From: Styela clava
Lineage: Eukaryota; Chordata; Ascidiacea; Stolidobranchia; Styelidae
DNA: 64,000 nt
Assembly (NCBI RefSeq): GCF_964204865.1
Contig: NC_135252.1
Location: 8,639,383-8,703,382, forward strand
Direction of reading: 5' to 3'
In this document: positions 8,439 through 62,070 of the stretch, piece after piece
Layout: each line of letters starts with the position of its first letter
Numbering within the stretch: the stretch's first letter is position 1
Notes under the pieces: generated by a model
Told to the model about the DNA's origin: nothing
Seen by the model: the letters and a program-made list of their open reading frames with translations, nothing else
Databases searched by the model: none
Translations under genes and position numbers: made by a program

Positions 8439-10436
8439 ATGGCTGACAGAGGTACTTCCAATGGACAAAATTGGCAAGAAAGGGGTTCACCATACTGGAA
8501 TGCGCGATCGGAACCTGAAATCGATGTTTGGGATCCCACCTCTGTGTCTTCCAATAATTACGCTAGTTCAACAGCACCAAATCAGGTTTCTTCTCAACAG
8601 TCTCAGCCAAGCAATGTTCCTGCTTCTCAACCTAGCCCAAATGTAAATAATTATACACAAAATAATATGTCTGCCAATTGGGGAAGTGGTTCATCTCCAA
8701 CGCCACAGCAAGCTCCGTACAGACATCCAAACAGTGGCCATCAGCAGTCTATGCCTGGAAGCAATGCTGCAAGTTATGATGCCCAACCCCCAATCTTGAA
8801 TTCCCAATATTATGATCAATATTCTTCCAATAGCGCGACGGCTCCTACGCCTCAAAATGCTTACAGCTCTCAAACAGATTATTCTCCACAGCAATATCAA
8901 AATAACTCTCGTTATCAATATCCACCAGCACCAGAATGGCCTGCAGGATCTTGGCGCTCACAATCAAATGTGAATTCTTATAGAAGTTCTGATTTTAGTG
9001 AACCTTACAATGATACACCCACAGCAAAAAAGTTTTCAAATCCCTTAATGAACTCAAATGAAAGTGCTGCTGATTCTGCAGCAGATCTTGTAAAGCAGTT
9101 ACATATCCAGGGCCAAAACGACCAAAGAAATATAGATAAAGCTCCTAGAAATCCTGCTGTGATTTCAAATGCAGCTTTAGCCATGTTAAAAAGTGACTTG
9201 CGGAAAGCAGCTGTTGCTTTTGAATCTGCTGAAAACTTGGAACTTGCTCGTAACATTCATCTAGGGCTTGTTGATGTTACGACAAACCTAGGGCAAAATG
9301 TTGTAGTAAGCAATTTGTCTGCTGAGGCTGCTGATTTTGTTCCAAGGGCGACACCAGCGGCTCAAGTTAAACATGTTCCTGAACAAGCACCTCAGGACCA
9401 GGAGGATGCTTTGATTGGAAATTTGAAATTTTTCATTGAAAATATTTTGACACAACCAGGAAATTTTGATGACCTTGTTTCACATTTTATTGAGCAAGTT
9501 AAATATTATATTTATTCTGATGAAGTTGTTGAAGAAATGGTAAATATTATATTCACTAAGGCAATAGATGAAGATAATTTCAAGTACCTAGGTGCCAGAT
9601 TGTGTGATTATCTTACTAAGCCAGGTGTACTTTCTAATTTTCGATCAATTTTTCTTAATCATTTTCAAACTGAATTTAAAAATATTCGAGATTTGATAGA
9701 TGGACAAAAAGAGGAAGATGTCAATAAAATTCACGGATTTTTGATGTTCATGGCAGAAATATTTATTCATATAAAAATCAATGGGACCCCTGTGATAGCT
9801 TTAGGAAGATCTCTGAGTAAAACACTGGAAAATTTACTTCTAAATCCTACAATAAAGAATGTGACTTTCGTTTGCAAGGTTTTGAAACTTGCTGGTGGAA
9901 AGCTTATAGATGCCTTTCATCGTGATGAAGAAGACATGAAAAACTATCAGAAGAATTTTGCTACTTTAAATAAGTTTTCTGATGATCATAAGGATAAGTC
10001 TAGTGGAGAAAGTAAGACTATTGTCTTGTTAATTTCATCTGTATCTCGGTTAAAAGATAGTAACTGGGGAAGAACGAAGTCCAATACGCGTCCCAAGTCT
10101 TCTATTGGAGACGCGGAAGAGTATGGTGATGCCCTATCCGAAGTGGATCAAAATTATTACATGAATGAACCTGTATTTTTCACACCTGAGGGAGTACAGT
10201 ATACAGCTGCGGAGGCTCAGATTCCAGAATTCTATCAACAACATCTTGCTAGACATGGACTTTCCCATTTTCCTTTATCGGAGGATGGCGAAAGTTTGCC
10301 TTGGAGTCAAGGCGTTGATGCTTTTGATGACTTTATTCCTTCTGATGACGAAGTTGAATTTTATAGACAAGATTCACAAGAATCTGACTATACAAAAGAA
10401 TATGAAAAATTCTTGCGAGACTCTAGTCAACTGTAA
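8439..10436 (+). CDS. PAIP1: Polyadenylate-binding protein-interacting protein 1 (PAIP1)
   Basis: A single uninterrupted 665-residue frame. PAIP1 bridges poly(A)-binding protein and eIF4A/eIF3 to stimulate cap-dependent translation in the cytoplasm. Residues 1-200 are low-complexity Ser/Gln/Asn/Tyr/Pro. Residues about 290-302 (SNLSAEAADFVP) form a PAM2 motif that binds the MLLE domain of PABP. Residues about 320-540 are a MIF4G-type helical repeat (YLGARLCDYL, FMAEIF). The C-terminal region keeps PAIP1 blocks such as DSNWGR and YYMNEPVFFTPEGVQYTAA, then an acidic tail ending EYEKFLRDSS. Human PAIP1 is 479 residues, so the N-terminus here is longer. The start ATG follows AT-rich untranslated DNA. 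The lack of introns is notable next to multi-exon neighbours and could mean retroposition, but the frame is intact. Confidence 0.95.
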   Translation: MADRGTSNGQNWQERGSPYWNARSEPEIDVWDPTSVSSNNYASSTAPNQVSSQQSQPSNVPASQPSPNVNNYTQNNMSANWGSGSSPTPQQAPYRHPNSGHQQSMPGSNAASYDAQPPILNSQYYDQYSSNSATAPTPQNAYSSQTDYSPQQYQNNSRYQYPPAPEWPAGSWRSQSNVNSYRSSDFSEPYNDTPTAKKFSNPLMNSNESAADSAADLVKQLHIQGQNDQRNIDKAPRNPAVISNAALAMLKSDLRKAAVAFESAENLELARNIHLGLVDVTTNLGQNVVVSNLSAEAADFVPRATPAAQVKHVPEQAPQDQEDALIGNLKFFIENILTQPGNFDDLVSHFIEQVKYYIYSDEVVEEMVNIIFTKAIDEDNFKYLGARLCDYLTKPGVLSNFRSIFLNHFQTEFKNIRDLIDGQKEEDVNKIHGFLMFMAEIFIHIKINGTPVIALGRSLSKTLENLLLNPTIKNVTFVCKVLKLAGGKLIDAFHRDEEDMKNYQKNFATLNKFSDDHKDKSSGESKTIVLLISSVSRLKDSNWGRTKSNTRPKSSIGDAEEYGDALSEVDQNYYMNEPVFFTPEGVQYTAAEAQIPEFYQQHLARHGLSHFPLSEDGESLPWSQGVDAFDDFIPSDDEVEFYRQDSQESDYTKEYEKFLRDSSQL

Positions 10437-12038: not shown

Positions 12039-15000
12039 ATGGTGAGTATAAACTGATTGATTTTATTGAATATTGACGTACATATCAAATGTATTATGCC
12101 TTGAAGTATGTCAAAGATTATCCTTGAATATGCCAATTCGATTTTAGTTTAAACAAATATGTGGAATCGAAGTAGGCTAGAAAAAAGGCCCTTAAAGAGT
12201 TCGAGTTGCACATTGATCTGCATCGACCTTCACTTCCTAAAAAGTACAGTATATAATAGTATTGAAACAAATAAAAAATTATACTCATTTGGACAATTCT
12301 AGAATAAAACTGTTCATAGATGACATCCTAACTACCCTGAAACAGAAATCTATCTGTACATGTTATGTAGTTCGACAGTAGCTACTACTTATTGTGCATC
12401 CTTGTGATATAACAACATAATGTTAATATCCTAGTATTTTCCCTTTTTCATCAACTCTTCTTCAGCTTTTATTTGTTAATTAACAAAATGGCTGTATTTT
12501 AATACGGTATGATAAGTTTTTCTTTCATTTAGAGATTCAGATTCTGTGGAGATCTGGATTGTCCAGATTGGGTATTGGCTGAAATAAACATTTTAGCGAG
12601 ATTGGTAGGTGTTTGATATATGATAAGCATAAAAATATGAGTTGTGTGGTGTACCTTGAATATTACGGTAATATATTGCAATGCATATATACGAACAAAG
12701 TCATATCATATCAGCCGAACTTTGTTTAATATTACATAGCCATCTTTAAACTATTCAAAGAGTACAGGTATTTCTCCCAACATACAATTTAATTAATTGA
12801 TGTCCATACTATGCAATTCAAAAGTCATACTGCACACTAACGCAAATGTATTTTTGTAACATTTCGTCTGACCAAAATCAGACTTCCCTTAGACAAGCAG
12901 TGACTTTGGTCAGACGAAACGTTACCAAAATACATTTGTGTTAGTGCGCAGCAGAAAGGACTCTTGAATTGCATGGTATAGTCATGCTTATTCCTGCTGC
13001 TGCATTCTACGCATAATAATCCGCTAGCATAATGGCATAACTGAAAGATAGACAACCCAACTCATAATTATATTGATGACCATGTCAATTTGTTAGATTT
13101 TCACAATTTATACCAAACTTATTTCTGTCAACTTGTTTCTGTTTAGACATCAGTAAAAATGAAGTTGCTTGTTATGCAAGTTATCAAAGCAATTCTTGGA
13201 GATGAGATTGATGTGAGTTACTTCAATAATAATTAATTTGGAGTATGTATAACAGGAGTCAAACATTTTTAAAACACTGAGACAACAAACATAAAAACTT
13301 GTCAAAATTAATCATTTGTTTGCAGTAATATCACTTAATAGCGGTTCGTTTAAATGAGCATTCCTGGCTAACTCGTGTAGGACGTATTTAGACCGTTTGT
13401 CTCAAGTATATCTAGTAAGACGATCCCATTATCAATTCAAACTCACAAATCATCACATTGTATAAACAGTAAACTTTTACAGGATGAAACAATTGTTCAA
13501 AAAAGTTTATGCTGTGCTTGTAAGGCATTGTTGAATATTGGAAAGCAATATTTTAAAACAGGAAGTGAAATTTAACGATTTTCACCTGAGTTATTTCATT
13601 GCTATCAGTTTTTTGTCTCCGCTATTATGTGACCAAAATATTTTATACATTTCTATCCAAAAACATTCAAAATTGTGTATTAGTGTAATGAATCATGCTT
13701 ACTGGACTACATTGTAAAATTTCGGAAAATTCAACTAAGTATATACCGGTACATTTTCACTTTAAAGTACAATAGGTTCATTAAAGGGCATTGCTAAGCG
13801 ACAAACATTGTATATTTGTTCCATTGCTCATAAATTGACCTATAGATAAACTAATTGAGATATTATCTTTTTTAGCTCAAAAAGGTTGAAAAAATTACAT
13901 CTGATGCTAAATATGGTAAGTATTTAAAAAATTATTCTCTTTAGGAGAATACAGGTCACAGAAAGTGGTATACTGTAGTTAATTATTGGTGTCGGCTAAC
14001 ATGTATTTGTACAACTTTAGTTCCGATTTCTTCTGACGATCCAATCCAAGTAAAGTGTTGAATGCTTCTGGCATATTGAGGGTATATCTTGCTTAATCAA
14101 ACATCTCATCATGTTTACTTAATGCTTTCCAGAGCCAGGTGATGTGAAAGCAAGCATAGCTGGAATTCGTTATATAATATCCAGTGCTGCAAAACATGAT
14201 GTTGATGAAGAAACTCTATCAAGTGAATTGCAACAACTTGGATTACCAAAAGGTAATTTCTATCTATTTTAATACATTTCATATAGCTGCTGTTGTAAGC
14301 CAATGTGGCATGAGCCAGAATTTTAATTTGAACTATATCACTGTTACACTGTTGATGAACACTTTGTGTTAGAAACCTCGATGAGCTATGGATTAATTTA
14401 AACCACTTATCGAAACGTTTCTTTTTGATGGATCAATTTTGAGTATTAACGGTAGTCCTAACATTTTTGAAAAATTGCATTGTGGAGGAGATTTTAGAAT
14501 TGAAATCTGCAATTAATGTTTAATTAGCTATTATACAATTTTAATTCTGGTCTCAAGTACTTGCAGGAATACCGAAAGCTTTCTCAGGGCCTCTGTATGT
14601 CTTTGTCTCTTTTTTTTCTACTACTTTGATTTGCGGTAGCATTAATAAGACAATTGTTACATTATCATCAGAACATACAGCTGCTCTTTGTAAAACATAT
14701 GATGGTAAATTGCCACAATTACAAGAGGAATTCAGAAAACAAAGCTTACGGCGATCTGGGCGATTGGAAAATGTAGCATGGAAAATAGAGGAAGTGAAAA
14801 ATGATAAATCTGGCGAAATTGAGAAGCATGCTGTGATTAATCTGCAAGTAAATAGAATTTATTAACCTTTGACAATATACATCACCATGGAATTTGCATA
14901 TCAGGCTATACCAGTATTACCAGTATCAATCTATCTTTTCTTTATGTATGTATTATAGAACACAGTGTTGCATAGCCACGAAAATTTATTCAATGTAAAT

Positions 15001-16374: not shown

Positions 16375-18210
16375 TCATACCAATTGTGGCTTATCTGTAT
16401 CTCCATTATACTGTTGAATGTCATCCTCATTTCCTGGAAATTGGTCCCATGAACTAGCATGCAAAATTGCAGTATCGCCTTTAATTACAAATCTTGGTTC
16501 ACAATCATCTTGGTCCACAAATGTGTCATCTCTATATTCAGCAAATTTTAACTTGGTAAAATCTGACTTCTGTTCACATTGCGTCTCACCCCCCATGGCA
16601 TCTTGAATATAATTTTTCACTTCACATTCTTCAGAAGAATTGTTTTTATATCCGCATTCAGTTGAATTTTCAACCTCATGAGATTCTAACTCAGCTCTGT
16701 TGTCCTTTTTGTCAATTTTCATTGCACATTCTTCTGAAAAATTGTTGTTGTATCTGTTTTCAGTTGGATTTTTATCAGCCATTTTCCTAATTTTTCTTTT
16801 TCGAGGCTGTGTCTTCACCTTTAGTTTGAATTTTGGGGCAGGAGGAGGCCTTTTTCGTTTCTTTGAAGATTTTGTCTTAAGGAAGTTGGCACTTTTTGAT
16901 ACATTATCGTTGCCATTACAATAAGTAGAGATCTCAGATACCAACGTTGGTGGATCAACTGCTTCAGATTCATATTTTTTAATTACATTTATACATTCCC
17001 GCTCTAGATATTTCAAAACCAATCTAGAATCGAATGAATGAGCAATCGTATAGATATCCCAAATTTTTGATTCTTCCAAATGGAATAAATTCTTCAGTTT
17101 ACCCAAGTATGCAATTTCAATAAAGCTTAGCATTGCATCCGTTGTAACATCGTGCATCACAATTTGGTCAGATGAATCTAGAAGTGTTTTCACTTTATCA
17201 GAAGCAATAGAAAGAATACATGAATGCACCTTGAATTCATATCCCGCATTAGTTTCATAATATTTGACTGCATCATCGTCATTACGAATGGCAGTTCTTC
17301 TCTTGCGGCCACGTTTTTTTGGTTTCTCACTTTCTGGAATCAGGATAGTGCAATCGCAGCACAAGTCCATCTGTTGCTGCATATACAATGTATGCATCAT
17401 AACACCGCTGTGTACTAAATCTACTTCTCTGTTGGCGATAATTTTTTCTGGTGATACAGGTGTGGGAAGTGTTTTCGCAGACTTGCTTGTACTTGACTTG
17501 CTTTCAATATATGGTAATTTAGGATTTCTTTTAGGTGGCTCAAGACCATGTTGCACTCTCTTATGAAATATATGGTCTAAATGTTTTACCAATCTTGAAG
17601 TATTAATATCTTCATTAGGACTTTCAAGACGCATGACCATTCCACAAGTTCTGCATATGTATGAATTTTGCCTGATATTATATAAAAGAAATTCATCTCT
17701 AATATTGCAGTCTGTGTTTTCGGCCTCAATTTCAGGTATATCATTTGATATTAACTGGGAATCCTTCCATAGATCTGGGTGTTTCAGCTTGACGTGGTTC
17801 CACATAGAGGTTGTATTACGATCAGCTGATCTTGAAATATGAACTGAACACGTTTTACATTCTGCAATATTTTTATCATTTTTATTGAGCTCAAAAAATT
17901 CCCATATTTTTGAAGTAAATCCCTTGCCCGTTTGCTTTTGAAGGGAGTTTATGTTCAATTGGTTTAGTATGCTCTCCGCTAGAACATCATCTTGGCCTAT
18001 TTCGGATAGCATTGTGCTCACTTCTACATGACTTTGGTCGAGATGCTTCCAAAGTTTTTTCCCAAGAGTACTACTTTTTTTGTCTGCATTCATTATCTTA
18101 CTTCGATCGACAACAAACCCACAAATGTTACATACTGCTTTATCTTCATTGTCGCCTTTCAATGAGAATGACAACCAAACTTTTGAACGACGACGATGTG
18201 GACTGTTCAT
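16375..18210 (-). CDS. Triple BED zinc finger-BTB/POZ protein, paralogue A
   Basis: A single-exon 611-residue protein that I cannot match to a named gene. BED-type fingers: C27/C30/H56/H61, preceded by the VW..F signature; C118/C121/H139/H144, preceded by KIWEFF; and a more degenerate third at C186/C189/H210/H216 lacking the leading Trp. A BTB/POZ domain follows at about 262-405 (VDLVHSGVMMHTLYMQQQ, CCDCTIL, VHSCILSIASDKV, FIEIAYLGKL). Its internal loop carries a basic KKRGRKRR insert resembling an AT-hook or nuclear signal. Another basic block lies at 449-476 (KKRKRPPPAPK, RKRKIRK), and the tail is acidic. BED fingers bind DNA in transposases and chromatin proteins and BTB domains oligomerise, so a nuclear DNA-binding regulator is likely by inference. 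An in-frame TAG touches the ATG, within TTTTCCTAG|ATG, which also reads as a splice acceptor. A paralogue is at 28358-30199. Confidence 0.85.
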   Translation of the reverse strand: MNSPHRRRSKVWLSFSLKGDNEDKAVCNICGFVVDRSKIMNADKKSSTLGKKLWKHLDQSHVEVSTMLSEIGQDDVLAESILNQLNINSLQKQTGKGFTSKIWEFFELNKNDKNIAECKTCSVHISRSADRNTTSMWNHVKLKHPDLWKDSQLISNDIPEIEAENTDCNIRDEFLLYNIRQNSYICRTCGMVMRLESPNEDINTSRLVKHLDHIFHKRVQHGLEPPKRNPKLPYIESKSSTSKSAKTLPTPVSPEKIIANREVDLVHSGVMMHTLYMQQQMDLCCDCTILIPESEKPKKRGRKRRTAIRNDDDAVKYYETNAGYEFKVHSCILSIASDKVKTLLDSSDQIVMHDVTTDAMLSFIEIAYLGKLKNLFHLEESKIWDIYTIAHSFDSRLVLKYLERECINVIKKYESEAVDPPTLVSEISTYCNGNDNVSKSANFLKTKSSKKRKRPPPAPKFKLKVKTQPRKRKIRKMADKNPTENRYNNNFSEECAMKIDKKDNRAELESHEVENSTECGYKNNSSEECEVKNYIQDAMGGETQCEQKSDFTKLKFAEYRDDTFVDQDDCEPRFVIKGDTAILHASSWDQFPGNEDDIQQYNGDTDKPQLV

Positions 18211-21200
18211 CTAGGAAAATTGTCATATTTAGGAAACTTCTAGTTATTATGCACAATTTGAACATAGCCTACATTGCCTTTATCTATATTGGCGTTTTTC
18301 CCAATCTGCCAATTGTTATGGCAAACTGTAAAGAGATCCTTACATATCAGTGACTGATTGTACGTAGCCTTGTTTAGAGTGAAGGTGTGAAAATATTGAA
18401 TAATAAAATATACCTAAGCAATACTAATAACTGACTTGATATATACGTTGAAATTCATGTTAATTTATTCAGTATAATTATAGTTTTCCATCCTTAAAAT
18501 TTTGAACTTTATTTATATCCCACAATCTGTAATATTCAGATTTTTCATTCACTATTCATTTCTGATTTCTAAGCTAAGCATCTTACAGTCTCAGGAATTA
18601 GTTGTGCAAAATCTAAAAATGTATTAGTGATATTTCTGTATTTGATTTTTGAAAGACGGTGTTTTTTCATCAATGCTAGACCCTACCAGTATTCATTCGT
18701 GAAAACTAAACGCCCATTGTTGCTGCCATAATTATCGACAGCTTTTTGCTAATGCTGCCAAATCAAAAAAATTTTTATCACTTTATCGACATCACAGAAA
18801 AGGTGTAAATATTTATCGACTTATAACTATAAATATCGACACATACCTTATGATTTCTTCAAGATTTCCTTTATCACAACTTTGGTTCTAAAACTAGATT
18901 AGCCCAAACTATTGGTCACAATTTACGTGTTGTACCACGCGACTGTTTGATATCTCGGTAGAAAAACATGACTAAAAGAGAGAAAAGTACCATACTGCGG
19001 CGACACGGCACTTCGTGACGTCACAAGTTGGATTTATTGGTAATCATCGAAGCACATAACTTACGCTTGAGTGCAACGACACTGAAGCGTTGACGGGCTC
19101 TGCAAACTGTATTGTGTGTTCTTCGCACAAAATATACCCTTTATTACCTCAAAATATGATTCAAAATAGGCTTAAAACTAAACTAATAAATCTACCAGTC
19201 TAACTAGATACAATGGTGTATGGGTAATCTACTTGTTATATAACTAACTATGTATGATATGTTATCTATCAAATACAATCGAATTAAATATTTTTTTTCT
19301 GAATCCCACAGGTCATAATGCTTCACCTAAAATATGACTGTTTTATTTGTTCTTTCACGCTTAACCGCCCACGTCACGCATGTCCGCCGTTTTTCAGCAA
19401 AGGAATTGAGGATTTACTGGTACATGTCCGTCAGGCTCATTTGTTTAAGTTTGGGAAATACGAATATGGAATCGAAGAGACTGGAACAAGCTAGCAATTC
19501 CGGCTGGTATTGTCGGCAAACCGAATAGCCCCTTATTTTCCCTAGCATGATGAAAATTTCCAAGTCATTATTCCCTGACTGAAATGCGTCATATGTCACT
19601 TATCTCAAAAAGTACTCTGTATAAGTACCAAATATCTCATTGGGTAAACTTGGGAACGCATGGACCATATAAATATCTCATTGCAGTACGGTACAGTTTG
19701 CGATTTCAATATTGTCCCTGATATTAATATATTTGTAACAAATATTCCATTCGCCTCTGAAACTAGACGTATTTCGAACGCTCGATGAATCGGATTTTTT
19801 TTTTAATAAATCCAATCGTGACGTTTTAAGTATGATTTTTCTCAAATCCAATTTAAATATATACATACAAATATCATTGTAATTGTTCTAAGGTATGTGA
19901 GACTGATTAGACGGCAATTTCAGACAAATGATATACATAAATGTTTTATTATCGTTAAAATAGTACAATGACATTAAACAACATGATGCGCAACTCCGGC
20001 ATTTTTGTCCGAAGATCGTATTCGATAGCACGCTCCAATGCACATACTTGACGAGACGAAAACGAGCGGATGTGTGCTGCTTTCAAGGCGTAGCACGAAT
20101 GGTGTTCGTGCCTGCTTTGACAGTTGTTGTCGATTTTAATGATATTTTTGAAAGTTGGGGTAAAAAGAAATCGGTAAAAGGTAAGGTGAATACTATTGTT
20201 GTATATCACACCCGGGCATCGCACTGTTAAGTACATGTGGGAAAGCCAGCCTTTGTCAAATACTACGAAGTTATTAATTCAGTACGGTACGGAGTTGCCC
20301 ATTTGCCGAAATTACATCTTTACTTACCCCTTATGGTTTCAAATAGTTCATGCACCTCCAGTTAGATTTTTTTAATCAGTGAGGATATATACTCATTGTT
20401 GACTGCTGCTCATTGTAACATACTATTACGCATTCACTTTTATTTGCGTATTGAATCAAAGTGTTAATAAGTTCACCTAACATTTCACTCATACCGGTCT
20501 ATATTGTATAGTCTGATTTCTCAAGTATTTGGAGCCACGAATGCTTGTAATTTTCTGACTAAACCCTTTTATTAGTTGGTTTATATACCAAATTCAGTAA
20601 AATATTTTTTAAATAAAACATGAGATATTGGATTTATTAGCTTTTCCATTCTGAATCATATAGACTGCTTTATTTATTCTTAACGAAAATTAATAAATCT
20701 CCTCTCTTTCTTCAGATGTGAAAGTTGTGGACAAACCTGTCTAAGCATTGTGAGATTCTTGCAGCACAAGAGGCAATAGCAGAAATAGTAAGTATATCAA
20801 TCAAGAAATTAAGCCGACATAAAGCAAAACTTTCAACTATTCGTCTAATCTCAATTTCCTATTATTTATTCACAGGACAACTATAGCAGACGGGGAGATA
20901 TCAGAAGTCTGGCGACATATCAGTGACAGTGTGATTCCAAGAAATATAATGCAATTGAAAATAGAAAATTGCAATAGAAAAACAACCTATGGAGGCATGC
21001 AAAGACATTTGACCCTCCGGTAGAGTTGTGTATGGCCCCCACATCCTGCAGGGCTTGAGGAAAATAACCAAAAATTCCAAAGCGTAAGATTGCATAAGCG
21101 GTCTTATTTGTAAAAAGGCACAAAACACGCCAGACATACTTAAAACAGCTTTGGAAATGAGGATTACGGGTACCTCACTGCACCTGTGTTATATTTGGTT

Positions 21201-22489: not shown

Positions 22490-25400
22490 ATCTATTCTAG
22501 ACGATTCAAGCATTGCTTTGGGAAATTATATCACTTCAATTAAATTGAAATAATCTCGCTATATTAAATACAAAATCGTTGCTATCATAAAGGTAAACCA
22601 ATTCAGCCACTCGAAATATATTGGCCTTCACAAAGCAATGGAGGCAAAATTGAGAGTTCATGAGCTATGAACATTTGTTCTTTTCTTTGTCTTGAACTTT
22701 CCATACTCCACAGCCCCTATTAATTTTTTTTAATCTTAATTACCATGTGATGGTCATACATATCTTTAACTTGTATTTTCTGTCATGATGTATTATCTCA
22801 ATGTGCCAAACTATTAATTAGTGTGCATATTTTGCTTCCAGATGACATAAATGTATTGTCATGTTTATTACCTCAGCTTGGAGTATTGACAAGAAAAAGG
22901 TGCCAGTAAATTAGGTAAAAAAATTTTCAACTCATTGTTATGATCAGAATTCACAATCAATAGGAATTATAAACAGCCAACAATCAGTGAGAATTATATG
23001 CGAAATCCCTCAGAATAAATTTGTCTAAAATCGGAGGAAGGCAGAAAATATAGGTAGTTTCCATCCACACAAGCATTTCAAGAAGACTTGCTCGAGCCAA
23101 ACTAAATGAGCATCGTCAGGTGATCGGTAAGGCTGCAAGTTGAATTCAGCCCTGCAACCTCCTGCATAGAAGATAATATTAATTAGTGGGCTATGAGCTA
23201 AATTCCTAAATTTAAACAAACCTATCTACGATGCATTATGTACCAGCAATGTTACCTACGATTAACTGAATATGTAATATGTCTAATAAATTCACCTACA
23301 AAAGCAAGTTCGATAGGTGCAAACTTTGTGTTATGGAATTGTATCGCAGCACAGTTTTGTATGACACCCTCTTTAAATGAAATTTCAATGATTAAGCGCA
23401 AACATTAAAATGACTAACTTTGAACTTTGTCATTATCTGCAAAATGTTCCACACAAATCTTTCCGCTATCGCGTTTGTAATCTTCTCTGATAAAAAAAAA
23501 ACGTCTATGATGTCCAGAATTGCTCTTTACAGCTTGCCTGTTATTCCAGCTTTCCAAGTAAGCAAAACTTCTTAGATATAGAGATTATTTTGTTTCGTTA
23601 CAGGCGCAAAAAGGCAGGTACTACACGTAAAAAAGACGCCGAGTAGCAAAAGCGAGCGGAAAACGGACGCAAAAGGCGACGAGAAATATGTGCATTGGAG
23701 CGTATCATGAAATACAATGTTTTACCTGTAGTCTTATGGAGTGACGTCAGAGTTGCCTATCATGTTGTTTAATGTCATTGAATAGTATTAAAAACAAATA
23801 AACACCACATGCCGCTGTCTTTCGATATTAAATCTTTGTACAAAAAAACATCAAATTTTCAAACAACAAATGCGACCAGACACAGCATATTGCTTATTTG
23901 TTGTCAGTAGCCGTTGGCGTTCCACTTTCTAGCACGACTGATCCCAGTACTTCCCCGTTTTCTGGACCTACTACGTTGATCGAAATGGCCTGTTTTCCTG
24001 TAGATGGTGGCTCAGTTCCTGATCTGGAAAGAAAATATATTCGTAATTTGGTTCGGGACATCGGAAGTAAAATTTATCTAAACACATCAGACTCGCAACC
24101 ACCATAAGTAATCTATGCTTATTGATAGAATGAAATATAGATTTATGAGTTATATAGACTTGGATATATTATTGGACACGGTTGTGCACGCATGGATCGT
24201 TTTGCTCAACTATTGTTGTTTTTGTTTTTGAAAAAAATCCCTCTGTGTCGCAACTAACCAACAATTATTATAAAATTTTTATCATAAAGGTGGAAAAGTC
24301 GCTATAAGCTCATTACAAGTTTTTCAAGTTTTCTCTAACACCTTTGTGTCTCGATATTTTAGCCAAATTGTTGCTGTATCATTTTAATCAAAGAGAACAC
24401 TTTTTATTCTAAAAAGATTGACCACCTCTGCCACGCTTGTCTACTGCCTCCTTCAGCATACACAGTGTTTCCGAGGCCTCAGCGGTGCCCATGTGCGGTC
24501 TTCGTCTCCATATATTTGGGCAACACTCTCTTGTTGGAAGCGAAGTGTACATATGGGTCGTTTTGTTATCATTAATAATATTTTTGGACATGAAGTGTAC
24601 ATATAGGTCTTTTTGCTATTATGTTATTTTTGTTATGTTGATGTTCGTGTAAGTATTTTTTCTTATCGTTATGAAAAAGTCACTTTTCTCTTTTATTACA
24701 GAACTAATTGCTTTGAAATTTTCAGTGGATAAAGATTGTATTTTTTGCTATTACTTCTATTTATTTCCATGGGCTCTATGGGATTCGTTTTTTGTGTGCA
24801 ATGAGGTGACGAAAATTGCGCACCTTGTGGCAATTGCATACCCGTACTACTTCGTTTTGGCCGTTGTGTCCATACATTTGAGCACCGCTCTCTTGTTCCC
24901 AATATGCGACTATTTTGGATAAGAAAACTTTCTATAGTTTATTTGAACTAAGTTTGATGAGTTTTTCACTATGAAACCAGCAACAATAAGTTGTATTTCA
25001 TTTCATCCCAGCCTAAACTGACTAATTGATGAACAGAATTATGAATTTCGAGATATTCAGTCTACCTCAAGCATCTCAATACATAAAAAGTACATCATGT
25101 ACGAATTTCAACTGCATGAGGAAGACTTTTTTTTACATACACAAAACTTAATGTTGCTTTATCTTACTGCTTATCTGCTCTTACCTTTCCTTTTCGTCAC
25201 TATTTGCAATGTCACACTTTGGATTTTGAGAAAACGCTGCTAAGTCAGGAAGTCCGAAATTAAGCGATGATATACTCATAGTCACCAGTTCTGATGACTC
25301 TGTCGATATTGAAAAAGACAACAAATATTAATCAGGTACAATTGGTGCAAACCATAATCCGTGAACAAATTGATACTTATTAGTTTTATTCGGTATTTAT

Positions 25401-26057: not shown

Positions 26058-29000
26058 CTAACCAGTATTTCGATTAAACCCAGGCTGGGAACTGACGACA
26101 AATATCGAATGCCTGTTATTACCGTAATCTGTTGTCAAATCACCTGCGAGCGCTGCTATCGTTCCATCTGTATGACTCGACTTTGCTGTCTTGTAGCTGG
26201 ATGAATGTTCTTCGCTACCTTGTTTTGCCAAACTCATTTGACTATTTTGAAGGGAGTTCAGGGATGACGCTGCAGTCGAGTAGAAAGTTGTTGATCGTGA
26301 CATACTTTTACCTTCGAGAATGATTCTCATGAACTCTTCATAATCCAATTTACCGTCTCCGTTTTTGTCGACAAATCTGAACAAAAGATTCCGATAGAAG
26401 ACAAATGATGTGTCTGTTAAATTAACGATGGGCGATAAACACAACGGTCTGGGAAAAGATAGGACAAACCAGGCAAACTCCAGAGGCCACCCAACCATAC
26501 TGTACTCTGTACTGCGACGATTCCTGCCATACGACCAACATAACCGCCTAAGACCTTACGACAGGGGTCGGCAACATTTTGTCGCTCGCGGGCCAAAATT
26601 AAGGGTTGCAAGTCTAAGCGAGTCGCACATATTTTTAGAAAGTTGAAAACTGAACGGATGGCCGATGAATCACAATTTTTTCAAGCAGATCAGAAGTTTA
26701 AATTTTAGATTTTAAACAGCCCGCGAAAACTGCGACAATTCGAGAATTAAACTCAGTCGTCTTACTAAAAAATTTTTTACATATGACATTTAATGTGACA
26801 CCTGTTGTTGGCTTATTGCATCACGCTCGATAGCTTTTCGGCATCAGGCGGCACACTGGATGAAGCCAAGATTAGAACATTTTCTAAATGCGCACCACTA
26901 ATCCGAGTTCTCAGATTGCTCTCTGCTGTGATGTTCCTTTTCGAAAATAATTGTTCGCACGCATATGGACTTCCAAACATCGATGTGAATTTTATCGCAT
27001 GGTTTGTCAAATTTGGATAGAGATTTCCTTCAAGAATAAACTTTTTATAAAAATCAAGCAGTTATACATCTATCGAATAGAATATGGATTTTATTTCCTC
27101 ATTGTATTGCATCTCAAGAAGCTCTATTCGAATATTTTCTGCGTCATTGAACCCTCTGCACTCAACATCAACTTCTCTGCCTGTTGCCATTTGTTCAATT
27201 ATAATTAAATTGTTGGCTCGTTAAACGAGTAGCTTTTCACTGAATTATTAGGTTATAATATAATCTACATAAGCTCACAATAAATTCTGTTACGTAAAGA
27301 ATATAATCAACTCCTCGAGCGTGGATTATAAAATTAATTCGTGTAAACCGCCGTTTTGTCGCTACAATCCAGTGAAGCGTCGCGGGCCGGATCTGGCCCG
27401 CGGACCGTAGGTTGCCGACCCTTGCCTCACGGCATCGGGTGCGCGCCTTAAAGCTGAGTGAAACGAACACCAACACTAGAAAATCCGAATTTTGCCCAAC
27501 CCACGGTCAACATGGTTGCAGTTGCGTTACCACGGATGCGGGTGTGTGAATGAATTTTTTTTTTTTTTTAATTCGGTTTCTTTTAGGTTATTTCGGCAGC
27601 TTCTCGAATTACGATTTATTATGTTTTATGTAAGAGCTGTGAGTCATAGCGTTTCCCCAGTTTTTTTCTTTGCGTTCCGATGTGTATCTCCAATATGGTG
27701 ATGAAATAAAAAACTATTGATCTCGCGCCGCAAGTGTGTAATTTAAGCCCATAGTTTGTATACAACTTACTTTGTAAAAAAAATCGCGTCTCTAAAGCAT
27801 TGCAATAAAGTAATATCTGTATCATTCAGCAATATATAAAATTAAGCCATTGGACTTCTGCAGTTTTGGGAACTGAATGTAATTAAAAGAAAATGAACAA
27901 CAAATAAACAATATTTCGCAACGAAAGGCAGTGCGACAATACTAAAACACAAAATCATATTAAATGCAAAAATATTTGCCATTTTGAACAATTTCACAAG
28001 AAAAGTTAAAGAAATATCAAATCACCATTGCACTCTTTTGAAAGAAATTCTGATACATATATAGAAAATATAAAATGTTATACAAAATATTGCTTCCAGT
28101 AGCAAACTGATCATGAATAACACCTTTTTCTGGATATCTGTTTACAACGCTGAGAAATTCAGGAATTGAAAGTAAATACTTGACCACTGCTCGTCAACAA
28201 AGTGATGGCAAGTGTGCAGTTGATAACAATTTTAAACATGTCACATGTGAGTAAATTCTCCTGGTCAGCCTGCTGACACTCTTTCTTTCACTGTTGAAGA
28301 GAGGTATGTTTAGGTGTATATCTGGTGAATGCATCAAATGAAAAGTAATTGCGTTTTTCATGCCTTTACATCAGGTTCAATAAGTTCTGATTTAATCAAT
28401 GTGGAGAGAAACCTCTGTGCTGAAGCTATCGACATATCCTCCATGTCTTTCTCTTCATAAGAAGGTGAAGATGGTACACATGTATTACCTGCTGTTTGAA
28501 CACTATTTTGACCTATTTTATGATCTTTATTCTTTTTGTTGAAGACTGATGATATCTTGAGGCTTCCATTTTGATCTTTGTTAATAACAGATAACAAAGA
28601 GCTTTTATCTTCATAGAGTTTATGTCTTTTTCGGCTGTTTTCATTTGGCACTGGCAAATAATTTTTCCTTTTATTTACCTTTGGTGTACGCGACAGCAGA
28701 CGAGAAGAATCTATATTGCTTTGGTTGTCAGATTTTATATTTTCATAAGCTTCACTCTTTTCAGAATTTGAACTATCATTAACAAGAACAGATAAGCTGG
28801 AATCAATTGTGGAGCTAGCAGATAGACCTGGATAACAACGGTTCAAATACTGTAACACGGTGGGTGTTAATAATATTTCAGCAACTTTACTAACGTCTTG
28901 CAGCTGAAATCTCTTTGAATCATTAATGTTACTCAATTTACCAGTGTAAACAATTTCAATAAACGCGGTCATGACATCTTTATCAACTCCTGTTATAGTG

Positions 29001-32000
29001 AGACTGTCGGATCCCGATTCTATTGCTGTTCGCAGTTTGTCTGATACAGTCCCAATTACACATTTATGCAATTTGAACTCTGTTGTAGATTGTGCGGAAT
29101 TACCACTTTGTGTGCTGCCTATGTTTAGATTTTTTCTTGTGGTTGAAGAGTTTCTTACAAAGATAGAGAAGTCACAGCAAATTTCCAGCTGTTGTTGCTG
29201 ATATAAAGCATTCATAAGAAGAGCAGTATGGACCATATCAACTTGTCGATTCGTCATCATGTCACCTATATCACCCATTGCTGGAAAATTGCCATGGTTT
29301 GAAGAATTTGTACTATTTCCATTCATGTCATCATCTGATGATTCTGTAACCATAGAATCATTTACCTGATAACCTTCGACTTCAAGATCAGTACATTTAG
29401 ACAATGTCGCTTCATTCAGTTCTTGCTGTACATCACTTGATGATAGATTATAATTCGACTCATGTTCATCATCTTCTGAATAAGGTGAGTATTTCTGAGC
29501 TAATCCTTTGGAATGCAGTGCATTTATGTGATGATTTCCTTTCAAATGCCTTCTCATGTTAGTTGTGTTCAACTTCTCTTTGGCTGTGCCACGAGACACT
29601 ATAGTATCACAAGTATCACAAATGACTTTGCAGGAATCAAGTGGATGTTGAGTGAATTCATTCCATACGGTTGATCTCCTGCCTTTTGAACTTAACACCA
29701 CATTTTCCATTGCTTCATTTACATATTTGGCATACATGGTTGGATGATACGCCATCATGTGATACCAAAGAGTATCTTTTCCATTTTCATCATCTATTGT
29801 AATTTCTGTATTACATTCCGTGCACTTTACTGCTGTGCTGTCTTCATTATTAACAATGAAAAGTTCCCATATTTTAGAACTATTAGAAACCTTAATTTCT
29901 TTCGCTAGCGTGATTGATGATCGTTTACTTTCCTGGTTACGATTCATGTCTTCCTTAAATTTCTTAATTTCATTGAATATATTGGGGTGCTTGTTTTTGA
30001 CATGATTCCATAGATTAGTTGTGCATTGTGACCGAGCAGTCCCGCCTCCCCTTGAAACAATTGTTTGACATTCTTTGCAAACTGCTTTACATTGGTCATG
30101 CTCTGCCACTGAGAAAATCTCCCAAATTCTTGATCTCTTTGGTACTTTTCCACGAGGTTTTTTCATTAAATCGGGGCTACTAATTATATCAGCATTCATA
30201 ATACTTAATTAACTGTATATCTGGTATATTGCTTGTATTCTGTATGAAGCACAGTTGTAATCAATTTCAAGTAAAAATTCCAATTGATATGCACACAATA
30301 GGAATCCCAATATGTTTTTATATGCAGAGCTGACACATAACACATCCCACCTTGCTTAACATGCTCATAAACCTTATATTCCAGCAGAAAAAACTACCCT
30401 ACAATTACATATCCTAAAAAATTGAGGATTTTATAAATTCCACTAGTTATTGCCTCCAGCAGATCTCAAATTGTTGCTACAATGTTTTGGTTGTTGACGA
30501 CACCGTGCGGCCACAAATTGGTATAGCTGGCATTTACTTCCTGTTAAAAACCATCCGCTTTTGGTTTCGTAATCAACTTGCGCGATTTCCAAGGCTCATG
30601 AAACGACAAGTGTTTAATATTTGCTATTTCGTTGTATTGCCTAAGCCAAATTTCTCGATAGCACTATTCGAAAAGAACTTAATTCATCTTGCAATTTGGA
30701 AAATTACGGTCTATGATGAGCGCGAAAAATTGAGTTTTCAATGGCTGCCTAAGGGTATTTATATCATACCAGTACACATACGCTGTCTATTTTGTACATA
30801 CTGTAAACCGATTAACGATCGCAAAACAAAATGTGAACAACCGGTTGTAGCTATCATAATGCGTATATAACAAAAGTCGCGCCTGTCTGCGCACTGTTTG
30901 CAACTAACTGTGTGTCTGTAATCGGCTAGCCCGGTGTGATCGATCCACACACACTGCTTCCTGTCTGATGGCGGATCGAAAATCAATCGTATCGTTTTAC
31001 GCGCTTCGCTCTCTCGATCACGATCTTTTTTCTTCGCGGCCAATACGTCACAGCGCCGTGATCGAAACAAAGACCCGATCGAAAAGACGGCTATAAACGC
31101 GGTTAAAAGGCTTACGCGACATGAAATTATTCGATCGAGCAAGTTGAGAGCCTACATATCGAGGATATTTTCGGCCATATGGAAAACGGTTCGATAAAAT
31201 CGCTTATCGGGTCACGGATAAGTAGGTTTTGCTAATTTGTACATCGACACTGTAGCGCGCTGAGCTAGATATCGTTCTAAAAATACGCGTACACACCTGG
31301 TTTGAATAATTACGATGCCAATATTTTCAACTTATATCCACTGCCGGTATAATCTTTACTCGAGCTAGGGCAGATGATTTCAAATACCAAAGATCAAAAA
31401 TTCGCTTTGATAAAATTTCACTTTCAAGATAGCATTTGTATTGTTTTGTGTATGTGGATGGAAGATTCGCCGTGTAAAAAGTCCCAAACGCATGATAATA
31501 TAATTTGATGGCAAATTGAAAATCAAATAGGTTGCCAGTGAATAAAAATTACTAAAACAGACAAAAAAATTAAATGGTATTGCATTGTAACACAGTACAT
31601 TATATTATCCCATAATATACGACAGACCGGAAAGTCAATTGTATATTTTTATATTCATAAGATGGTATTGGCGAGATTAAGACTCCAATATTTATAAACG
31701 TAGACAGTAGAAAATACGTTTCAACACAATGCATGACTGCCTTTGTTGAATATAACCATATGACGTGAAGAGCTTGTTATCTCGCGATAATTTGTTTTTT
31801 AATAATTCAAAAGCAAAATTTGTATTGTCAAAAACTCATACGAGTAAGCCATTAATTTTTCATTCGGTCTTAGAAACCTGGACATAAATAGATAGGATAA
31901 TCTTCTAGATAAAAGATGTCTGTCAAATACTAAAATTTCGCTCAGTTCATTGGGAAGGAGATGCTATTTTAATATTATTGCTTTGTAAACACATAATACT

Positions 32001-48058: not shown

Positions 48059-48409
48059 TTAACGATCCCAATATAAAATAGATCGCTAGTGTTAATGAGT
48101 TCGTTATCGACGGCGCAGATGCCTTTGCAGTCAATTGTAGATGTACTTTGGCAAGCTGTATGACATGATTTTGATGTTGCGGTGACATAATTCTTGGATG
48201 ACATAGTCTGATCAGGATTAGGAATAGCATATTCGAAAATGGTCATGTCATGCCCACGGACTCAAATAATGTGCCATCATTCCATATATCATGTGCACAA
48301 ATGTTATGCAAGAAGTATCTTTCATTTGCCCATTTCTATTTCATTTTTAATAAGACATAGGGTTTATAATTAGTTGTTTTAATTTGTTCGGGATTGTAAA
48401 TCACAAAAA

Positions 48410-50122
48410 ATGGTTTGGGAAAAAGTTGCTTCTCGTATCTTATCGACTGTAAAGATATCCAATCCAAGTGTTATCGCTCGAAGAGGTTATGCTGCGGCGT
48501 CCACAGATTTGAAAGAAGTATTAACCAATCTTATACCAGAGAAGCAAAAGGAAATTGTTGAATTTAGAAAAGAATTTGGAAATGCTAAAATAGGAGATGT
48601 CACTGTTGATATGGCATATGGAGGAATGCGTGGAATCAAAGGCATGGTATGGGAAACATCGGTTTTAGATCCAGAAGAAGGAATTCGATTCAGAGGATAC
48701 AGTATTCCCGAGTGTCAAAAGCTACTTCCTAAGGCTGAAGGAGGCAATGAACCCCTACCTGAATCACTTTTTTGGCTGTTGGTCACTGGTGAAATTCCTA
48801 CCAAAGAACAAGCAAATGCTTTGAGCAGGGAATGGGCCAAGCGAGCTGAACTTCCACAACATGTTGTTAATATGTTGGATCAACTACCCAGTAATGTACA
48901 TCCAATGTCTCAGCTTGGAGCCGCTATCACAGTTTTAAATACAGAATCACAGTTTGCCAAAGCGTATGCTGAAGGGGTCAACAAGCGTTTATATTGGGAA
49001 TTGGTTTACGAAGATACTATGAATCTTATTGCCAAACTTCCTCCAATTGCAGCAAAAATATATCGCAACTTATATAGAGATGGAAGTCCAATAGGAACCA
49101 TTGATGAAAATGCTGACTGGTCTCTCAACTTCTGCAGGATGCTTGGTTATGAAAATGCAAATTTTATTGAGCTAATGCGTCTTTACCTTGTAATTCATTC
49201 CGACCACGAAGGAGGAAATGTTAGTGCCCACACTTCTCATCTTGTTGGAAGTGCCCTGAGTGATCCATATCTGTCTGTTGCAGCAGCAATGAATGGACTT
49301 GCAGGACCTTTGCATGGACTTGCCAACCAGGAAGTTCTTGTCTGGCTCACAGGTAATTTCTCATCTTATTTACATATGCCACTTCACTCCTCAGTCCAAT
49401 ATTATTTAAAAACAGTTTACGCTTTATTCTAACTTAAAATTGCAATGCAACAAATCTAGCTTAAATATAAAAAAATTGGAGTAGATGTTTCTGGAATCTG
49501 TGGAACAATGGAGGTAGTAATCTTGCATGTTTTCTTGTTAGATTATTCTATATGTATTTGTTTTTTACGATTAGCATTTGATTAAAACAGTAACCTTGGG
49601 ACATATTTATTGACTGCACACAAGTAGTAATTAACTCAAATTTTGTATGTATATTCTTTATCTTTAGGCGTTGTGAAAGAGCTTGGAACCGCTGAAGTAT
49701 CTGATGATGAGTTGTACAAATATATCTGGAACACACTAAAAAGTGGCAGAGTCGTTCCAGGCTATGGTCATGCAGTATTGCGCAAGACAGATCCTCGCTA
49801 CACCTGTCAACAAGAATTTGCACTGAAACATCTTCCAGATGACAAAATGTTCAAATTGGTTGCTCAACTTTATAAAATTGTTCCTGGTATTTTACTCGAA
49901 CAAGGAAAAGCAAAGAACCCATGGCCAAATGTGGATGCACACAGTGGAGTTTTGCTTCAGCACTATGGAATGACAGAAATGTCATATTACACTGTGCTTT
50001 TTGGAGTTTCAAGAGCGCTTGGATGTCTGTCACAAATGATTTGGAGCAGGGCTCTTGGTCTCCCGCTTGAAAGACCAAAGTCAATGAGTACGGAAGGATT
50101 AATGAAATTAGTGAAGAAATGA
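48410..50122 (+). CDS. CS: Citrate synthase, mitochondrial
   Basis: Two coding exons, 48410-49352 and 49668-50122, joined in phase 1 (ACA G|GTAATT to TTTAG|GC). They encode 465 residues; human CS has 466. It condenses acetyl-CoA with oxaloacetate to citrate in the mitochondrial matrix, the first TCA cycle step. The N-terminus ([16 protein letters not shown], then ARRGYAA) looks like a cleaved transit peptide. The catalytic residues are present: His302 in [11 protein letters not shown], His349 in [15 protein letters not shown] and Asp404 in NVDAHSG. The [13 protein letters not shown] block is also intact. The ATG follows A-rich leader sequence, and ACATAG about 50 bp upstream resembles a 3' splice site. 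It is convergent with TPGS2. Confidence 0.98.
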
Positions 50123-55760: not shown

Positions 55761-56010
55761 ACCTATGTATTATGTTCATCTCGTGTGCCAAATTATGGAC
55801 CTAGTTGTTGAAGGAAGCCATGAACATATAACAACATACCAGTAACGACCAGTTCATTTAACAATTCATTTAATGATTTAATTTTTCCCAATATACCTTT
55901 CTACTTTTGTCACCTGTCACCGATATACAACATTTAACCTATTTACAACATTTTCTCCTTAAAAAGGCATAGGAGTAGGTAAAGTTAGAAGGAAGGTGTC
56001 AATTTTCAAA

Positions 56011-58224
<2,214 letters not shown>

Positions 58225-61100: not shown

Positions 61101-62070
61101 CGAGGTGCGGCTAAAATGAAACGGGACTGATGTCACAGATTGCGCAACACGATTAACCATCGGTAATCAACGCTTTTGCAGTGTGGCGTAACATGTGTTC
61201 TTTGTTTAACGGCTGTTTTGACACAATATCGCAATTATTTTTGCTTTTCAGGATCCATAAGTGAATGTGATAAATTTCTTGTTGAAAAAAAATGCTGTGC
61301 GAGGTCTGATTGAGTTTTTTGGCGATAGGGGGTTCAATTGCAGAATGACGATTGAGCAAATAATTAACATTAAATTTTGTGTCAAACTTGAAAAAATGCA
61401 TGTCAACTCGCCATGCATTCAATCGTTGAGCTTTCTGCTCCTCAGTCAACTCAAGAGCCTTTGGCATCATTTTGGCACACACCTTTCGCACTCCCAAAGT
61501 GTCTACCGAAATGGTGCAGACCGTTTCTTTGTCCATCCCAACTTCTTTGGCAATGACGCGAGTTGTTAAGCGACGGTCACTGCGAACCAACTGCCGAACC
61601 TTTTTGATGTTTTGGTATCAGTTGTGGAAGTGCAGGGCCTTCCTGACTTTGGATCATTCTCAACATCTTCCCTGCCTGCCACAAATCGCTTGTGCCATTT
61701 AAAAACTCTTGTTCTGGACATGGAAAAATCTCCATAAACATCACGCAACATCTTCAAAGTCTCATTCGCCGTTTTTCCCGAGTTTGACACAAAATTTAAT
61801 GTTAATTCTTCGCTCAATCGTCATTCTGCAATTGAATCCCCTATCGCCAAAAAACTCAATCAGATCTCGCAAAGCAATTTTTTTTTCAACAAGCAATTAA
61901 TCACATTCACCTATGGCTCCTAAAAAGCAAAAATAATTGCGCTATTGTGTCAAAACAGCTGTTAAACAAAGAACACATATTACGCCACACTGTAAAAGTG
62001 CTGATTACCGGTGGTAAATCATGTTGCGCAATCTGTGACGACAATCCCGTTTCATTTTAGCCACACCTCG
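61101..62070. mobile_element. Fold-back mariner element with 290-bp inverted arms
   Basis: A 970-bp element flanked by TA on both sides (61099-61100, 62071-62072). Its ends are CGAGGTGCGGCTAAAATGAA and the complement of CGAGGTGTGGCTAAAATGAA. The similarity does not stop at a usual 30-bp terminal repeat: 61101-61390 is the reverse complement of 61781-62070 over the whole 290 bp, at roughly 90 percent by eye. Both arms are the start-proximal end of a mariner. The middle 390 bp contains the first part of a mariner transposase on the minus strand. The catalytic DDD region and true 3' end are gone. Confidence 0.9.
61391..61824 (-). pseudogene. Mariner transposase N-terminal remnant
   Basis: Minus-strand coding remnant starting at ATG 61824. 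The recognisable pieces are the two helix-turn-helix DNA-binding regions of mariner transposases: ETLKMLRDVYG, SRTRVFKWHKRF and GREDVENDPKSGRP, then SDRRLTTRVIAKEVG, RKVCAKMMPKAL and LTEEQKAQRL. The pieces lie in different frames, with at least two frameshifts (one at an A-run near 61776, another near 61590). Coding similarity stops at the left arm, before any catalytic Asp. It cannot encode an active enzyme. Confidence 0.88.

Follow-up and report, generated by a model that had tools for sequence, protein, structure and literature searches.

The 64,000-nucleotide stretch of the Styela clava genome analysed here (NC_135252.1, positions 8,639,383 to 8,703,382; hereafter the window) carries two neighbouring genes, A and B, each of which encodes a predicted protein with three N-terminal BED-type zinc fingers followed by a BTB/POZ domain. 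A third gene, on contig C6 of the same genome, has a single BED finger ahead of its BTB domain. The three form a real, if small, BED-BTB family and a variant of the BTB-zinc-finger kind; we consider it likely that they are paralogous nuclear DNA-binding regulators with a ZBTB-like plan, in which hAT-type BED fingers lie N-terminal to the BTB domain. The features discussed below are located in Table 1.

The coding part of gene A is one open frame of 611 amino acids on the minus strand, well beyond the length expected by chance: when the window was shuffled 100 times under a first-order Markov model, the longest stop-to-stop frame reached 192 amino acids. The plus-strand reading of the same interval contains 38 stops. 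An earlier reading of this DNA made from its letters alone (the sequence-only reading) had described the intact frame, three BED fingers, a BTB/POZ domain behind them and a basic tail. Profile searches agreed with it on both domains, which score above their Pfam cut-offs (20.6 bits for zf-BED and 20.5 bits for BTB) in the whole protein: zf-BED at 47.1 bits (E 2.4e-12) over three stretches, and BTB at 23.7 bits (E 5.9e-5). The basic tail is likewise present and is followed, towards the C-terminus, by an acidic-rich part. The count of three fingers held for the protein as a whole, although not for each finger taken singly: finger 2 is certain on its own, finger 1 is near the cut-off and finger 3 is degenerate, so that fingers 1 and 3 pass only in the whole-protein context. 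Finger 3 lacks the usual tryptophan; it retains the CxxC...H ligands and has its best pairwise score with finger 3 of gene B. A low-confidence structure model of gene A showed a helix, three strands and a helix in each of the three fingers, including finger 3 at residues 170–220.

Gene B, which the sequence-only reading had not mentioned, lies 10 kb from gene A, with its protein encoded on the minus strand at 28361–30199. Its whole protein scored 70.1 bits for zf-BED, again over three stretches, and 21.2 bits for BTB. Alignment of the two proteins spanned 452 columns with 23% identity (E 7.6e-39), with the three fingers and the BTB domain colinear; between the BTB domains identity rises to 34%. 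The proportion of nonsynonymous differences was below that of synonymous differences in the BTB domain (0.42 versus 0.71), the BED fingers (0.53 versus 0.75) and the tail (0.56 versus 0.71). A loose ligand pattern, CxxC...H...H/C, is found in all six fingers. Pairwise scores matched A1 best with B1 and A3 best with B3; A2, however, scored higher with B1 than with B2. From the side of gene B, B1 scored best with the hAT transposase finger considered below (131, versus 121 with A2), B3 with B1, and B2 with A2. A2 and B2 were grouped (support 85/87) in a tree of 11 BED fingers that has long branches and in which none of the eight branches is fully supported. The most likely history is an old local duplication of one ancestor with three BED fingers and a BTB domain, and the three-finger plan is most likely older than that duplication because of the colinearity, more than because of the single-finger scores. 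The idea that gene A is a pseudogene was ruled out, as its frame is intact and colinear with gene B.

Searches of the species' own genome (377 Mb, 379 contigs) identified the third gene, an intact 566-amino-acid frame from its ATG with one BED finger (33.9 bits) and a BTB domain (23.8 bits) in the whole protein; the ligands of its finger read HLKRC, and its best pairwise scores are with B3 (90) and then B1 (77). The order of BED before BTB that had been read in gene A is thus common to three genes of this genome. The search with A returned 14 rows at E ≤ 1, namely A itself, three on B, one on the C6 gene and nine confined to the finger region; that with B returned 34, of which 29 were confined to finger regions and the rest were B itself and two rows each on A and the C6 gene. 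Further frames of 603 and 659 amino acids were among the matches to B. The only BTB domains that A matched in its own genome at E ≤ 1, among the 14 rows, were those of B and the third gene. As judged by the searches with A and B, the three BTB domains are each other's nearest kin, because A found no other despite at least 448 first-look BTB candidate frames in the genome; A, B and the third gene were themselves too weak to appear among the best 150 of these, the ones that were scored and listed. Further one-finger BED-BTB members may be present in the genome. Outside it, no relatives were confirmed in the virus and prokaryote contig collections, a result that, given what those collections hold, says nothing about animals, and an NCBIfam scan gave no family above cut-off. 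The sequence-only reading had suggested that the class may be lineage-specific; the animal genome searched was the species' own.

The BTB candidate frames also form long arrays, on C5 (2.78–4.80 Mb), C6 (21.8–22.5 Mb), C17 (2.96–3.06 and 4.46–4.77 Mb) and C14 (3.84–3.95 Mb); all of these are frames, not genes, and many of those on C5 and C6 are about 442–482 amino acids long. The total of at least 448 far exceeds the 44–56 BTB genes per insect given for five insects in the available text of PMC4033408, a comparison of frames with genes.

All three BTB domains have in common an insert of about 25–31 residues between the first two strands (B1/B2). Removing it raised the BTB score of A from 28.4 to 39.5 bits and that of B from 24.5 to 29.5 bits. 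A profile of the three domains matched 23 PDB sequences at E ≤ 0.01, of which 20 are ZBTB17/Miz-1 and its fusions (best E 4e-8), ZBTB8A, myoneurin, ZBTB7A, Kaiso or BACH1, and three are KBTBD2; by profile, these domains resemble the Miz-1/ZBTB transcription-factor BTBs. Structure prediction, which the sequence-only reading had proposed as a check, was less decisive: finger-type units were modelled in gene A and its BTB model runs helix, strand, strand and five helices, an order that fits the BTB fold, although confidence was low and the fold matches were weak and mixed. With the BTB model, VIA-align 2 did not place BTB/SKP1 folds above unrelated rows. Foldseek searches with the full model of A gave no match at E ≤ 0.001; ZBED1 (E 0.05) and ZBED2 (E 0.09) ranked first with probability 1.00, followed by a mouse egg cytoplasmic-lattice chain (0.99).

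BTB domains often bind Cullin-3, and the domain in these proteins could instead be a Cullin-3 type adaptor, with the BED fingers anchoring it on chromatin or on a substrate and the protein directing the degradation of chromatin-bound proteins. The BTBs of KLHL proteins, SPOP and KBTBD2 are indeed among the weaker profile or fold matches. The best profile matches, however, are transcription-factor BTBs, and Pfam scans listed neither BACK nor Kelch after the BTB domain in any of the three proteins, which makes such an adaptor unlikely. The same Pfam lists contained no C2H2 family for any of these proteins, nor did scans of the tails of A and B alone.

With regard to the BED fingers, a profile built from A1–A3 and B1–B3 matched ZBED2 (E 3.4e-7) and ZBED1 (E 3e-5) in the PDB, the other five of seven rows lying at E 0.31–0.92. 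The genome also contains hAT transposase frames with a finger of this type. The frame on contig C8, of 666 amino acids from its ATG, scored 74.7 bits for the Pfam hAT dimerisation domain and 29.5 bits for BED; it was the one of three such frames that Pfam scanned, the other two lying on C16 and C1. All three (L018, L019 and L020 on C8, C16 and C1; 669, 662 and 662 amino acids) are open throughout and 95.8–99.4% identical, which suggests recent movement, and the resident element has probably been recently active. Against the C16 frame, B1 was 40% identical over 78 amino acids (E 2.8e-14), B3 44% over 50 (E 8.5e-9), A2 32% over 60 (E 1.9e-5), A1 35% over 46 (E 1.7e-4) and a stretch from A3 33% over 63 (E 0.055). 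These alignments support a kinship of the A and B fingers with hAT fingers and make an hAT origin plausible. The sequence-only reading had taken the fingers to be transposon-derived; this stands as plausible for A and B but does not extend to the third gene, whose finger had no match to the C16 frame at E ≤ 0.1. That the architecture was made by fusing such fingers to a BTB domain is something we infer.

In none of the three BED-BTB proteins did Pfam list the C-terminal dimerisation domain or the catalytic domain of hAT transposases, the C8 frame (P0004) at 74.7 bits providing the positive control for the former. This is also relevant to whether the genes are transposon-derived copies in decay, or read-through frames of host and transposon, that have no function. 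The degenerate third finger of gene A and the abundance of hAT-like finger matches in the genome are what such decay would predict; three long intact frames, domains that stay colinear between A and B at 23–34% identity, and the missing hAT domains in all three proteins are not, and we regard decay as very improbable.

A related possibility is self-defence, whereby hAT-derived fingers bind the ends of the resident element and the BTB domain recruits repressors, either silencing the element or competing with its transposase. The near identity of the 662–669-amino-acid hAT frames, as a sign of recent activity, and the 40% identity of B1 over 78 residues are in its favour. Yet 40% identity is far from implying the same binding, and DNA binding is itself a prediction; the fingers of A are more distant, that of the third gene has no match at E ≤ 0.1, and host regulators unrelated to transposon control also carry BED fingers. 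We consider self-defence improbable. There is an equally slim chance of a broader proposal, that these genes represent a new class of animal regulator in which hAT-captured fingers N-terminal to a ZBTB-type BTB grew from one BED to three and still recognise the termini of hAT elements that reside in the genome and were recently active, linking host gene control with transposon control. The near-identical hAT copies with similar fingers do share a genome with these genes, and because of this one can ask directly whether the fingers have kept the transposase's DNA target.

Our preferred reading remains that of ZBTB-like regulators. Under it, one to three N-terminal BED fingers would contact DNA while the ZBTB-type BTB would pair chains and recruit partners, and the basic stretches of A (residues 296–305 and 445–476) may aid nuclear entry or DNA contact. 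The mode of action would then be like that of BTB-zinc-finger factors, with BED fingers ahead of the BTB replacing C2H2 fingers behind it. By analogy with the domain families, nuclear location, DNA binding, dimerisation and either repression or activation would be expected.

Base composition was examined as the observed/expected CpG ratio (CpG o/e), which is 0.61 for A, 0.52 for B and 0.62 for the third gene; other genes nearby range from 0.47 to 0.66, including two citrate synthase exons (0.50 and 0.47) and a MIF4G gene (0.51). The mean over 213 other windows was 0.93, with values as low as or below that of A in 48 and of B in 30. The depletion in the three genes fits germline-expressed genes and alone proves nothing. 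Across the whole window, CpG alternates between depleted gene stretches (about 0.3–0.6) and undepleted stretches (about 1.0–1.6). In some insects, gene-body methylation gives a pattern of this kind. Acceptor-like sequences were found near each start codon: TTTTCCTAG abuts the ATG of gene A (by eye and by motif scan), and by eye CATACAG lies 40 bases before that of gene B and TACAG 20 bases before that of the third gene. On inspection, a spliced exon in the 5' untranslated region is therefore possible for all three.

Other elements of the window include a palindrome at 12800–12985 resembling a miniature inverted-repeat transposable element, with two arm pairs (51 nucleotides, 90%; 27 nucleotides, 85%). 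A link between this palindrome and the BED-BTB genes was set aside because it has no second copy within the window. Diverged inverted copies (78–79%) lie about 3.7 kb apart at 19942–20049 and 23684–23804; a frame at 19964–20230 nearly matches part of the 138-amino-acid frame of L021, near an hAT fragment, and is perhaps another repeat element. A broken transposase frame at 61153–61617, presumably mariner-like from its resemblance, had no Pfam match above cut-off. Among the neighbouring genes, we take the MIF4G gene to be PAIP1-like.

Table 1. Positions in the window of genes A and B, their domains and neighbouring features.
Feature	Position	Strand	Basis or remark
Gene A, BED-BED-BED-BTB, 611 amino acids (P0001)	16375..18210	-	coding part a single open frame
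Gene A BED finger 1, residues 9-61	18028..18186	-	18.2 bits when scanned singly
Gene A BED finger 2, residues 100-145	17776..17913	-	38.0 bits when scanned singly
Gene A BED finger 3, degenerate, residues ~170-220	17551..17703	-	12.3 bits when scanned singly
Gene A BTB domain, residues ~258-415	16966..17439	-	Pfam, 28.4 bits when scanned singly
Gene A BTB insert between strands B1/B2, residues 292-322	17245..17337	-	low-confidence loop in model
Gene A basic patch KPKKRGRKRR, residues 296-305, within BTB insert	17296..17325	-	putative; resembles a nuclear localization signal or AT-hook
Gene A basic tail segment, residues 445-476	16783..16878	-	read from protein sequence
Gene B, BED-BED-BED-BTB, 613 amino acids (P0002), paralogue of gene A	28358..30199	-	frame, Pfam and alignment
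Gene B BED finger 1, residues 23-72	29984..30133	-	27.9 bits singly; top pairwise score to hAT BED
Gene B BED finger 2, residues 108-153	29741..29878	-	26.0 bits singly
Gene B BED finger 3, residues 176-223	29531..29674	-	38.0 bits singly
Gene B BTB domain, residues ~316-455, with its own insert	28835..29254	-	24.5 bits singly
CpG-rich stretch upstream of gene B	30800..31200	-	CpG o/e 1.89; candidate promoter or first exon
MIF4G gene	8439-10436		neighbour
EF-hand exon	26058-26555		neighbour
Citrate synthase	48383-50122		neighbour; second exon by reading
Quinolinate phosphoribosyltransferase	55963-56520		neighbour

The sequence-only reading knew of no named family with BED fingers before a BTB domain, and none joining the two turned up among the papers that the literature searches listed; exact phrases naming both domains retrieved no paper. 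Papers are cited here and below from the parts of their text that were available. Within those parts, the BED-BTB order is not described in PMC10027918, PMC4528696, PMC12492102, PMC12135582, PMC12386421, PMC8228293 or PMC3499355, and PMC12386421 treats BTB (66 members) and zf-BED (8 members) as two distinct families. The DNA-binding parts of arthropod BTB proteins are given as C2H2, helix-turn-helix (HTH) and FLYWCH, with the word BED absent from the main text (PMC11426971). No BED class is listed for the BTB genes of silkworm, honey bee, flour beetle, monarch and fly, although such genes might hide in the class 'Others', which has one member in honey bee, four in beetle and one in monarch (PMC4033408). 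Uncharacterised database proteins of BED-BTB order may well exist. Drosophila CG15725, which two papers name, might be a relative; the available text of one of them does not describe its fingers. If true, a BED-BTB class would add to the grouping into C2H2, HTH and FLYWCH, and would clearly exemplify the joining of a pairing domain of the host to fingers of transposon type.

BED-type DNA binding and a BTB partner also come together in the fly insulator proteins, where BEAF-32 binds DNA by its BED finger and interacts with the BTB protein CP190 (PMC8228293); there, however, two proteins are involved, by comparison with one chain here. As a narrower form of the preferred reading, a single chain might do the architectural job of BEAF-32 and CP190 together, but the parallel is one of domain type and we hold this specific role to be doubtful at best.

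Among individual families, the TTK-group BTB factors of arthropods are also BTB regulators and usually have one or two C2H2 fingers, with an FxLRWN motif in the N-terminal extension (PMC11426971); by eye, that motif is absent from all three protein sequences studied here. ZBED1, ZBED2 and other hAT-derived BED proteins share the BED profile match, which is weak by fold, and the fingers of A and B also match the resident hAT transposases; the proteins described here differ in having a BTB domain and no listed hAT catalytic or dimerisation domain. ZBTB11, found mainly in Chordata (808 of 828), has an integrase-type domain before its BTB and a C2H2 array after it, and so provides a precedent for a zinc domain of mobile-element type N-terminal to a BTB (PMC12062965), although its finger is integrase-type and its zinc-finger array is C-terminal to the BTB. 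The closest likeness is to the ZBTB factors, nearest Miz-1 (ZBTB17), with which A, B and the third gene share a BTB of transcription-factor type by profile, a modelled helix before strand B1 and zinc fingers in the same chain; they differ in that the fingers are BED rather than C2H2, lie N-terminal to the BTB domain, and accompany a B1/B2 insert.
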